From Aurantimonas endophytica (lineage in GTDB: Bacteria; Pseudomonadota; Alphaproteobacteria; Rhizobiales; Rhizobiaceae), in contig NZ_JACIEM010000001.1 of NCBI RefSeq assembly GCF_014196845.1, forward strand, positions 1,240,001 to 1,304,000: a stretch of 64,000 nt of DNA. Reading direction: 5' to 3'. The translations under genes and the position numbers were made by a program. This document shows, piece by piece, positions 26,380 through 42,100 of this stretch (position 1 is its first letter; every line of letters begins with the position of its first letter). The notes under the pieces were generated by a model, which was given only the letters and a program-made list of their open reading frames with translations, was not told the origin of the DNA and searched no databases.

Positions 26380-27054
26380 TTATTCGAGGTGGCTCGCCGC
26401 CAATGCCTGCAGCTTGTGCGTCAGATGCTCGCGCAGCAGCCGACCGAGACGCTCGCCTTCGCGTTCTTCGAGCGCCGCCGCGATACCCTCGTGCTCAATC
26501 GTGGCAGCCAGCCAGCGCTCCGGGGTGAGGTTGGCCTGGTAGCGCGCCCGGTAGACGCGGCGCGCCAGGATGGAATGATGCTGGACGAGCGTCGGGCTGC
26601 GCGCCGCTGCCAGGATGGCCGTGTGGATCGCCTGGTTGATTGCGAAATAAGCGGGACGGTCCCGATCTTCATAGGCCGCTCGCAGGCGGAGCGTATCACC
26701 CGCGATGGCCGCGATCTCCGCGTCGGTGGCGCGGGTCGCGGCCAGTTCCCCGGCCAGCCCCTCCAGCACCGCAACCAGCGGGAACAGCTCGGCGAGCTCT
26801 GCCAGGCTCTGCGCTGCGACCACCGCGCCGCGGTTGGGAAGGAGCGTGACGAAGCCCTCATGGGCGAGCACCTTGATCGCCTCGCGGATCGGCGTGCGCG
26901 AGACGCCGAACCGCTCCGTCAGAAGCTTTTCCGGCACCTTCTCGCCCGGCGTCAGCTCGCCCTCCATGATCATCCGGCGCAGCCTGTCGGTCAGCTCAAC
27001 CGCGAGCGCCGGCCGGGCAAGCGGACCGTCGAGGCGAGGGTCGGCGAGGCTCAT
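26380..27054 (-). CDS. GntR-family transcriptional regulator, FCD (FadR/VanR) type
   Basis: A 224-residue regulator. The winged HTH is in the N-terminal 80 residues (EKLLTERFGVSRTPIREAIK, then VLAHEGFVTLLPNRGAVVAA). A helical FCD effector domain follows, containing HTAILAAARSPTLVQHH, which includes the His residues of the metal/ligand site. FCD regulators respond to organic acids such as lactate, glycolate or pyruvate. Its ATG overlaps the stop of the FAD/Fe-S dehydrogenase gene by four bases, so the two are co-expressed. It probably controls that gene and the divergent aminotransferase/TRAP operon through the palindrome at 30086-30099. Confidence 0.9.
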   Translation of the reverse strand: MSLADPRLDGPLARPALAVELTDRLRRMIMEGELTPGEKVPEKLLTERFGVSRTPIREAIKVLAHEGFVTLLPNRGAVVAAQSLAELAELFPLVAVLEGLAGELAATRATDAEIAAIAGDTLRLRAAYEDRDRPAYFAINQAIHTAILAAARSPTLVQHHSILARRVYRARYQANLTPERWLAATIEHEGIAAALEEREGERLGRLLREHLTHKLQALAASHLE

Positions 27055-39247: not shown

Positions 39248-42100
39248 ATGAGCTTCGAATATACCGACTACGAGCCCTACGACTTCGCCAACCGCCGGCA
39301 TATCGGCCCCTCGCCCGCCGAGATGGAGGCGATGCTGAAGGTCGTCGGCGCCGAGAGCCTCGACGCCTTCATCGATGCCACCGTGCCGGCCTCGATCCGC
39401 CAGAAGGCGCCGCTCGAATGGGGCCCGGCGATGACGGAGCGCCAGGCGCTCGACGCGCTGCGCGAGACGGCCGACATGAACCGCAATCTCGTGTCGCTGA
39501 TCGGCCAGGGCTACCACGGCACGATCACCCCGCCGGTCATCCAGCGCAACATCCTCGAGAACCCCGCCTGGTACACGGCCTACACGCCCTACCAGCCGGA
39601 GATCAGCCAGGGCCGGCTCGAGGCCCTGCTCAACTTCCAGACGATGATCGCCGATCTCACCGGCCTCGACGTCGCCAGCGCCTCGCTGCTCGACGAAGCG
39701 ACTGCCGCCGCCGAGGCGATGGCCATGGCGCACCGCGTCGCCAAGGCCAAGCGGGACGTGTTCTTCGTCGACGAGAATTGCCATCCGCAGACCATCGCGG
39801 TGATCCGCACCCGCGCCGAGCCGCTCGGCTGGTCGGTCGTCGTCGGCGACCCCTTCGCCGATCTCGACGCAACCGCCGTCTTCGGTGCCATCGTCCAGTA
39901 TCCCGGTACATACGGCCACGTACGCGATTTCGGCGACATCATCGCCGCGCTGCATGGCGAGCAGGCGATCGCCATCATGGCGGCCGACCCGCTGGCGCTG
40001 GCGCTGCTGCGCACGCCCGGCGAGATGGGCGCCGACATCGCCATCGGCTCGGCCCAGCGCTTCGGCGTCCCGATGGGCTACGGCGGACCGCACGCCGCCT
40101 TCATGGCGGTCAAGGATGCGCATAAGCGCTCGATGCCCGGCCGCCTCGTCGGCGTCTCTGTGGATTCGCGCGGCAACCGCGCCTACCGGCTGGCGCTGCA
40201 GACCCGCGAGCAGCACATTCGCCGCGAGAAGGCGACGTCCAACATCTGCACCGCGCAGGTGCTGCTAGCGGTCATGGCGGCGATGTACGGCGTGTTCCAT
40301 GGCCCGTTCGGCATCAAGGCGATCGCCCAGCGCGTCCACCAGCGCGCCGTGCTGCTGGCCGCCGGCCTCGAGAAGCTCGGCTATACGGTCGAGCCCGACG
40401 CCTTCTTCGACACGGTGACGGTCGAGGTCGGCCGGCTGCAGCGCGTGATCCTCGACGCCGCCGTCGCCGGCGGGGTGAATTTGCGCAAGATCGGCACCGA
40501 CCGGATCGGCATCAGCGTCGACGAGCGCACCCGGCCCGGCAATATCGAGACGGTCTGGCGGGCCTTCGGCGGCGACATGAAGGTCGCAGACTTCCCGCTG
40601 ACTTACCGGCTGCCGGAGAAGCTGCTGCGGAGCAGCGCCTACATGACCCACCCGGTCTTCCACATGAACCGGGCCGAAAGCGAGATGACGCGCTACATGC
40701 GCCGGCTCTCCGACCGCGACCTCGCCCTCGACCGCTCGATGATCCCGCTCGGCTCCTGCACGATGAAGCTGAACGCCACGGCCGAGATGCTGCCGATCAC
40801 CTGGCCGGAATTCGCCGAGCTGCACCCGTTCGTGCCGGCCGACCAGGCGCTCGGCTACAAGGCGCTGATCGACGATCTCTGCGCCAAGCTCTGCCAGATC
40901 ACCGGCTTCGACGCGGTCTCGATGCAGCCCAATTCGGGTGCTCAGGGCGAATATGCCGGGCTCCTCACCATCCGGGCCTATCACCGCGAGAATGGCGGCG
41001 CCGAGCGCGACGTCTGCCTGATCCCCACCTCCGCCCATGGCACCAACCCCGCCTCGGCGCAGATGGCCGGCATGAAGGTCGTGCCGGTCCGCACGGCCGA
41101 AAACGGCGACATCGACGTCGACGATTTCCGCGCCAAGGCCGAGCAGTACGGCGAGCGGCTCGCCGCCTGCATGATCACCTATCCCTCGACCCACGGCGTG
41201 TTCGAGAGACGGGTCGCCGAGCTCTGCGACATCGTCCACGAGCATGGCGGCCAGGTCTATCTCGACGGCGCCAACATGAACGCCCTGGTCGGGCTGGCGC
41301 GGCCGGGCGACTTCGGCGCCGACGTCTGCCATCTCAACCTGCACAAGACCTTCTGCATCCCGCATGGCGGCGGCGGCCCGGGCATGGGGCCGATCGCCGT
41401 GAAGGCGCATCTGGCGCCGCATCTGCCCGGCCACCCGGCGACCGGCGGCGAGGCCGGGCCGGTGTCGGCGGCGCCCTACGGCTCGCCGTCGATCCTGCCG
41501 ATCTCCTGGAGCTACTGCCTGATGATGGGCGGCGCTGGCCTCACCCAGGCGACCAAGGTCGCGATCCTCAACGCCAACTACATCGCCCGCCGCCTGCGCG
41601 ACGCATACCCGGTGCTCTACGCGGCGGAAAACGGCCGGGTCGCGCATGAGTGCATCCTCGACACACGCATCCTGCAGGAGAAGGCCGGGGTCAGCGTCGA
41701 CGACATCGCCAAGCGCCTGATCGATTGCGGCTTCCACGCGCCGACCATGAGCTTTCCGGTGCCGGGCACGCTGATGATCGAGCCGACCGAGAGCGAGACC
41801 AAGGCGGAACTCGACCGCTTCTGCGACGCCATGCTGGCGATCCGCGAGGAGGCGCGCGCCATCGAGGAGGGCCGCTCAGACCCGCTCGACAACCCGCTGA
41901 AGAACGCGCCGCACACGGTGGAAGACCTCGTCGGCGAGTGGAACCGCAGCTACAGCCGCGAGCAGGCCTGCTTCCCGCCCGGCGCCTTCCGCGTCGACAA
42001 GTACTGGGCGCCGGTCAACCGCGTCGACAACGTGTATGGCGACCGCAACCTCGTCTGCTCCTGCCCGCCGATGGAAGACTATCAGGAAGCGGCGGAATAG
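39248..42100 (+). CDS. gcvP: glycine dehydrogenase (decarboxylating), P protein
   Basis: A 950-residue single-chain P protein (N- and C-terminal halves fused). It starts with [20 protein letters not shown]. The middle has [20 protein letters not shown], and the second half contains [20 protein letters not shown] and [15 protein letters not shown]. The PLP lysine is in the motif [19 protein letters not shown], where the glycine-rich loop confirms the family. It decarboxylates glycine and loads the aminomethyl group on H protein. Together with gcvT and gcvH it forms the glycine cleavage set; the L protein (lipoamide dehydrogenase) is encoded elsewhere, as usual. Confidence 0.98.

Follow-up and report, generated by a model that had tools for sequence, protein, structure and literature searches.

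Which of the genes crowded into one stretch of the Aurantimonas endophytica genome belong together, and what would they do for the cell? The stretch considered here (hereafter "the window", 64,000 nucleotides of contig NZ_JACIEM010000001.1 in a 5.04-Mb genome of 9 contigs) carries twelve genes at 26380–42100, which a sequence-only reading had described as one glyoxylate/glycine catabolic supercluster coupled to a tripartite ATP-independent periplasmic (TRAP) importer. All twelve genes were found in the order, at the coordinates and on the strands first claimed, and family scans agree with their assignments, with a reservation for a serine hydroxymethyltransferase (SHMT)-like gene that falls below the SHMT cut-off. 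Across genomes, the conserved unit consists of eight of these genes: a GntR regulator and an FAD/Fe-S dehydrogenase, divergent from a serine-glyoxylate-type aminotransferase (SGAT), dctP, dctQ, dctM, a crotonase and a coenzyme A (CoA)-transferase. We regard it as a catabolic operon whose gene families are all known, while their combination, kept in order in many alphaproteobacteria, has no name that we could find.

The evidence for this unit is its gene order. The eight-gene block is present in all eight same-genus genomes (the window's own counted), and its crotonase was detected (E ≤ 1e-60) in 15 of 60 genomes (the window's own and its relatives), including those same eight. A scan of named genomes returned at least 454 crotonase relatives, of which the best 80, a set leaning to close relatives and including some short contigs, were taken as named loci. 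All eight genes stand in order in 15 of these 80 and the six-gene + strand part in 16, while all four enzymes co-occur in 20 and the dehydrogenase and aminotransferase in 22; the remaining 58 retain at most two of these four enzymes at >55% identity. The full order also recurs in 9 of 14 relative loci, and two more lack only GntR, the stretch ending there. An order shared this widely among named loci, relatives and the whole genus is more than chance, and bears out the earlier claim that transport and metabolism form one unit. Among the 15 full-order loci are those of Jiella, Fulvimarina, Hoeflea, Ruegeria, Roseibium, Roseovarius, Rhodovulum, Poseidonocella and Pelagibius, and the closest named crotonases among the matches listed (82–83% identity) are those of Fulvimarina and of Jiella, a genus classed in Aurantimonadaceae. 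A Limimaricola plasmid carries all eight genes. Separately, a class-level search with the aminotransferase (68 of 289 genomes at E ≤ 1e-110) yielded 46 best places outside the window, 40 of which were examined (class-level loci).

Around this core the arrangement varies. In four loci from Marivita, Actibacterium and a metagenome-assembled genome (L117, L118, L127 and L151), the crotonase–CoA-transferase pair lies on the opposite side of the block, behind GntR, and L137 is arranged likewise, with no CoA-transferase found there. The four enzymes and a TRAP importer also occur in two genomes of 1.21 and 1.20 Mb (L258 and L259, one contig each, 100% and 99% complete), within 18-kb stretches of 32% guanine + cytosine (GC) in which GntR was not recognised; the size and composition of these genomes remind us of SAR11, which we take as a resemblance only. 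The order SGAT, dctPQM, crotonase, CoA-transferase is common to L242 and L258, and L259 has the same genes rearranged. An FAA-hydrolase-family gene was seen near the unit in two further loci, L246 and L248. For seven unit genes (dctQ omitted), correlations between pairwise distances range from 0.57 to 0.94 across the 25 loci that remain of 36 after removal of duplicates and partial genes, although shared species history alone may explain much of this correlation.

Comparison of loci also indicates that the transporter type and the neighbouring sink genes differ by lineage. Plasmid pACRY02 of Acidiphilium cryptum combines GntR, CoA-transferase, crotonase and a class V aminotransferase with a different transporter, a bile-acid:sodium-type symporter, and has no dehydrogenase. 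Outside the core loci, the crotonase has varied neighbours, among them transporters of the oligopeptide-type ABC, TTT and BASS kinds, an ADP-forming acyl-CoA synthetase and a 3-hydroxyisobutyrate-type dehydrogenase, which indicate no single substrate; in 30 of the 58 non-core loci, crude gene calls gave either no neighbour in the same direction or just the CoA-transferase or small frames. Simple gene calling sometimes chose the wrong frame, giving clusters antisense to core genes, and such clusters were not used.

The two arms of the unit diverge from a shared promoter region. The GntR/FCD regulator gene (26380–27054, − strand; Pfam GntR 65.8 bits, FCD 76.5 bits) overlaps the dehydrogenase gene by 4 bp, and the region between the dehydrogenase and SGAT holds a palindrome, ATAATGAATTCATAAT (30073–30088), whose position and symmetry make it probably the GntR operator. 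Of 35 orthologous intergenic regions (in which two genomes count twice, as L037 and L078 and as L038 and L077), 28 carry its 14-bp core, TTATGAATTCATAA, with no more than two mismatches. The core was missed in L092, L097, L125, L126, L129, L132 and L134, of which L132 and L134 have a short intergenic region that a wrong gene start may have cut, and is absent from the GntR–crotonase gap of the Marivita-type loci. The 16-bp form occurs once in the window's genome, at the unit, within two mismatches, with no control matches, and the window itself gives one match vs. 0.15 expected; a sigma-70 promoter scan, with one candidate vs. 0.8 expected, carried no information. We tentatively interpret the unit as a catabolic operon for a small hydroxy-carboxylate that would be controlled by its own GntR.

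How far does this operon extend downstream? Genes on the + strand are tightly packed from dctQ to the SHMT-like gene, with gaps or overlaps of at most 4 bp from dctQ through the CoA-transferase, as first described (overlaps of 4 bp for dctQ/dctM and 1 bp for crotonase/CoA-transferase, a 4-bp gap for dctM–crotonase), followed by 13 bp before the SHMT-like gene. Wider breaks occur at SGAT–dctP (63 bp), dctP–dctQ (109 bp) and between the SHMT-like gene and gcvT (83 bp). A GC-rich inverted repeat, noticed by eye in the dctP–dctQ gap (32421–32529), may be what keeps the binding protein in excess of the permease.

Beyond the 83-bp break lie gcvT (37722–38855; NF010093, 570 bits), gcvH (38875–39243; TIGR00527, 149 bits) and gcvP (39248–42100; TIGR00461, 1432 bits), all on the + strand, 19 and 4 bp apart, and all encoding glycine cleavage proteins above their family cut-offs. 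The sequence-only reading had counted these genes and the SHMT-like gene as integral, and had proposed gene-order conservation as a check, which the eight core genes pass and the glycine cleavage half does not. A single supercluster, with the SHMT-like enzyme and gcvTHP as dedicated steps oxidising the glycine formed, would fit the chemistry and the adjacent, co-directional genes here and in two close relatives. However, the order SHMT-like–gcvTHP adjoins the unit in only three of the eight same-genus genomes; gcvP is elsewhere in the other five (four have it on a different contig, and one at a distance of >1 Mb), and gcvT appears in none of the 80 named, 2 of the 14 relative and none of the 40 class-level loci. 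Moreover, besides the 83-bp gap, no second palindrome for gcvTHP was found in the window or genome, and in two further genera of the family gcvT is preceded by a tandem glycine riboswitch of its own (L196:2200-2365 and L197:2219-2393). Neither the window nor five same-genus relatives showed a glycine riboswitch ahead of gcvT. A candidate promoter seen by eye before gcvT was too weak to be used. We thus consider the supercluster quite improbable: with gcvP elsewhere in five of eight genomes and gcvT so rare at the loci, gcvTHP looks like a housekeeping glycine cleavage system, adjacent but not core, that now sits beside the unit in one subclade of the genus.

The SHMT-fold enzyme itself (36355–37638, + strand), which binds pyridoxal phosphate (PLP), is best regarded as an accessory and is probably not a folate-dependent SHMT. 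It scores 178 of the 335 bits required by PRK00011, and it retains the PLP Lys while Glu57 and the YYGG motif, both present in the genome's own glyA, are replaced (we take Glu57, the folate-side Tyr pair and the PLP Lys to be the SHMT residues, in E. coli numbering). Judged from these residues, it does not resemble a working serine hydroxymethyltransferase; an ordinary SHMT is encoded elsewhere in the genome (C1:112404). Close relatives (64–100% identity) occur in 5 of 60 genomes and are linked to the unit in all five, and the gene is present in 3 of the 80 named loci. A distinct SHMT-fold family, 30–36% identical to the window protein and also without Glu57, was observed in L039–L047, with no common neighbouring gene family beyond one pair of these loci.

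What, then, does the unit import? All three TRAP components are present: the solute-binding protein DctP (31443–32420, + strand; 230 bits), the small permease DctQ (32530–33060, + strand; Pfam DctQ, 79 bits) and the large permease DctM (33057–34337, + strand; TIGR00786, 387 bits). Residues R144, R165 and N205 of DctP are invariant in 19 orthologues and, by sequence, would correspond to the carboxylate-binding triad of TRAP solute-binding proteins, whose relatives bind pantoate or erythronate according to PMC11668362. The DctP model is poor in the second lobe (mean predicted local distance difference test score, pLDDT, of 72), and its Foldseek list (e.g., 4nq8, 4pdd) agrees with the sequence search. 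Together with this putative triad, the mandelate-racemase-family gene that in L259 separates the dehydrogenase from the aminotransferase, and a PdxA-family gene found in L145 (Bradyrhizobium, with crotonase, CoA-transferase and a TTT transporter; PdxA score below every cut-off), are weak pointers to a hydroxy-acid substrate.

The crotonase-fold enzyme (34342–35124, + strand; PRK06144 subfamily, 381.5 bits for a cut-off of 272) had been called unusual, and rightly so. Its fold is clear (Pfam ECH_1 143 bits; Foldseek TM-scores of 0.8–0.9 to solved crotonases; AlphaFold2 model pLDDT 92.7), and since the structural matches are ordinary crotonases, the model points to no particular reaction. The two glutamates that hydratases of this fold need, which we take to be Glu144 and Glu164 of rat enoyl-CoA hydratase, are both missing: their positions are occupied by A/G115 and I135 in 15 of 15 sequences, in agreement with the alignment to solved relatives, so that the enzyme does not qualify as an enoyl-CoA hydratase. 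Ile135 is invariant in 30 of 30 sequences. Arg137, Thr138 and Asn141 are invariant too and, as aligned, belong to the loop that follows the second glutamate position. A different crotonase (32–38% identity) fills the same slot in L242, L258 and L259, keeping the first Glu with Ile at the second; the loss of the second Glu in both kinds of crotonase weighs against hydration.

The adjoining CoA-transferase (35124–36341, + strand) is of class III (CaiB/BaiF), with 453 bits to Pfam CoA_transf_3 and Asp172, presumably the catalytic Asp, in 30 of 30 aligned sequences. It is nearest to dicarboxylate-handling class III enzymes, under their cut-offs, and CaiB is among its solved relatives. Pairs of a CoA-transferase and a crotonase are known from carnitine (CaiB/CaiD) and acrylate (AcuN/AcuK) metabolism, and here too the two genes adjoin, so that CoA could be recycled. 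By the logic of these precedents, the pair would catalyse hydration, dehydration or epimerisation of an acid, either unsaturated or beta-hydroxylated, as a CoA thioester that is recycled, and a 2-hydroxy acid would then fall to the dehydrogenase and aminotransferase. The same two families do stand side by side and the kinship with CaiB is in keeping with such chemistry, but a crotonase subfamily without either hydratase glutamate, and its replacement without the second, make it unlikely; the neighbouring genes differ from those of the precedents. A C–C bond cleavage by this crotonase, in our view, falls just short of probable.

The remaining two enzymes are more often found together than with the CoA arm. 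These are the dehydrogenase (27051–30023, − strand), a 990-aa FAD-binding and 4Fe-4S protein of the YdiJ/GlcD-GlpC, 2-hydroxyacid-oxidising type (Pfam FAD_binding_4, FAD-oxidase_C and Fer4), and the class V aminotransferase (30183–31379, + strand) of serine/alanine/aspartate–glyoxylate type, whose best solved relative is 6pk1, a "serine--glyoxylate aminotransferase" (E 5e-105). Among the 40 class-level loci, at least 24 include the dehydrogenase, at least seven dctP and at least eight a crotonase of either kind, these counts (like that for the CoA-transferase, below) being lower bounds as some stretches end at contig ends. The dehydrogenase and aminotransferase are the commoner pair, which the CoA arm probably feeds.

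The aminotransferase is also related to BhcA (442.7 bits), and the unit shares the glyoxylate node with the beta-hydroxyaspartate cycle (BhcABCD). Could the genes encode a similar glyoxylate fixation, with the SHMT-like enzyme, stripped of its folate-chemistry residues, as a glycine-glyoxylate aldolase? The BhcA score is below the cut-off of 650, the best BhcB match in the genome reaches 317 of 550 bits on another contig (with sub-cut-off matches in 14 of 14 control genomes too), the SHMT-like gene is as rare among named loci as noted above, and the unit has a CoA arm and a TRAP importer instead. We regard this possibility as very improbable.

Glyoxylate/glycolate as the node of the unit is, by contrast with the reactions leading to it, probable and the firmest of the steps we propose, in line with the original suggestion. 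In L076 a gene for malate synthase G (1266 bits) begins 59 bp after the CoA-transferase, and GlcG/HbpS-like genes occur in 9 of the 80 named, 1 of the 14 relative and 1 of the 40 class-level loci, next after the CoA-transferase in L074, L105 and L125 and adjoining dctM in L117, L118 and L151; all three of those tested match Pfam HbpS-like. Such companions beside the unit suggest a glyoxylate/glycolate node, as do the kinship of the aminotransferase with a serine-glyoxylate enzyme and its linkage to the dehydrogenase in the class-level loci. The companions also resemble parts of the E. coli glc operon (glcDEFGB, regulator GlcC), with which the unit shares an FAD/Fe-S enzyme oxidising a 2-hydroxy acid and a regulator of the GntR/FCD kind; it differs in its fused dehydrogenase, its aminotransferase, its TRAP importer and its CoA-transferase/crotonase pair. 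Similarly, 2-hydroxyacid oxidation, a serine-glyoxylate-type aminotransferase and nearby glycine cleavage resemble the plant-type photorespiratory C2 route, whereas here glycine cleavage is not conserved with the unit, the SHMT-like protein is non-canonical, and neither hydroxypyruvate reductase nor glycerate kinase is among the twelve genes.

From these observations we infer the following steps. DctPQM would import a small hydroxy-carboxylate, onto which the class III CoA-transferase would place CoA from a recycled acyl-CoA. The crotonase, with the oxyanion-hole fold and no hydratase glutamates, would then cleave a C–C bond rather than hydrate its substrate: tartronyl-CoA would be decarboxylated to glycolyl-CoA with release of CO2, or tartaryl-CoA would split into glyoxylate and glycolyl-CoA. 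As the CoA passes to the next substrate molecule, glycolate would be freed, to be oxidised to glyoxylate by the FAD/Fe-S dehydrogenase and aminated to glycine by the class V aminotransferase. Glycine or glyoxylate would finally leave by whichever sink is available, housekeeping glycine cleavage here and malate synthase G in another lineage. Such a scheme of CoA transfer, C–C cleavage, glycolate oxidation and amination appears the simplest that uses all four enzymes, and a hydroxy-dicarboxylate degraded in this way to glycolate/glyoxylate and then glycine is our tentative best explanation overall. Tartronate and tartrate are the leading candidate substrates, though tartronate is unlikely when taken singly and tartrate slightly more so. 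Cleavage of erythronate or threonate was set aside, as it would leave glycolaldehyde and the unit has no aldehyde dehydrogenase.

Several observations weigh against this scheme. First, loss of the glutamates alone is no proof of C–C cleavage, since a hydrolase, an isomerase or an inactive protein is possible, and in L246 and L248 the unit was found with TRAP and CoA-transferase genes and no crotonase. Second, the dehydrogenase is closest to the D-2-hydroxyglutarate dehydrogenase YdiJ (NCBIfam top family, 527 bits for a cut-off of 1350) and not to GlcD (184 of 567.9 bits), and elsewhere the genome encodes a further GlcD-like protein (539.8 of 567.9 bits), followed downstream by a second, weaker match, possibly GlcE; glycolate thus need not be the substrate of the unit's dehydrogenase. 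Third, a CoA-transferase orthologue was found in only 6 of the 40 class-level loci (five with the dehydrogenase), a lower bound. Fourth, malate synthase G occurs in just one of 134 loci (80 named, 14 relative and 40 class-level), the window genome's own copy being on another contig, and the GlcG-like genes score far under the cut-off of PRK09732, presumably GlcG itself (33–48 of 246). Finally, a gene like that of MhpD (2-keto-4-pentenoate hydratase) is present in 5 of the 80 named and 3 of the 14 relative loci (L067–L069, L095, L126, L129, L132 and L134), directly after the CoA-transferase in L067–L069, L126 and L132, and has no role in the scheme; its assignment is weak (the best score is 50.7 of 350 bits, L132 gives no score, and the two tested have no Pfam match).

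Some of these points would suit a unit that oxidises a D-2-hydroxy acid other than glycolate (e.g., D-malate, D-2-hydroxyglutarate or D-glycerate), with the aminotransferase converting the 2-oxo acid or using glyoxylate only as acceptor, and the CoA arm as a side reaction. Besides the YdiJ affinity and the other GlcD-like gene, this would agree with the 19 of 24 class-level loci having dehydrogenase and aminotransferase in which no CoA-transferase orthologue was found in the stretch. Against it, malate synthase G (at its single locus) and the GlcG-like genes at the unit indicate glyoxylate/glycolate, and we hold it to be rather unlikely.

Other features were observed outside the unit. A second DctP-like gene followed by two genes of DctQ and DctM size (matched by size only) lies at 44170–48866 of the window, directly 5' of a gamma-glutamyltransferase-like gene (289 of 358 bits), and a sul1 RNA motif match (18271–18323, − strand, 49.9 bits) stands at the start of the gene at 16724–18313. 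Elsewhere in the window's genome, a split glycine dehydrogenase pair, GcvPA/GcvPB, scores over its cut-offs (G000:C1:363647-366417, L048); the pair was found in none of the seven other same-genus genomes (E ≤ 1e-30), and no gcvT/gcvH relative was detected near it, either in 19 kb by tblastn or among nine scanned open reading frames.

As the sequence-only reading had supposed, we found no named pathway with this gene set in the open-licence full-text literature, although a description elsewhere is possible. Passages on transporters in studies of Ruegeria pomeroyi (PMC10041152, PMC10130141, PMC9038784) tie glycolate to glcDEF and do not name the unit. Each gene belongs to a known family, yet the set is kept in order, with one divergent promoter and a conserved palindrome, and went unnamed in the literature searched.

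Roseovarius, Ruegeria, Roseibium and other genera bearing the unit are known from the sea, and a unit kept in a genome as small as 1.2 Mb should serve a substrate worth its cost. It is tempting to speculate, though we think it rather unlikely, that the unit represents a hitherto undescribed but widespread pathway of CoA recycling. In it, a crotonase that is no hydratase would cleave a C–C bond of a hydroxy-dicarboxylyl-CoA such as tartronyl- or tartaryl-CoA to glycolate and glyoxylate, and on to glycine, and the pathway would be kept in streamlined 1.2-Mb alphaproteobacteria as a way of feeding on a common dissolved organic acid. The crotonase of the unit may catalyse a new reaction, and through the solute-binding protein the substrate can be tested directly; once identified, it could extend the known range of organic acids that marine organisms exchange as carbon sources.

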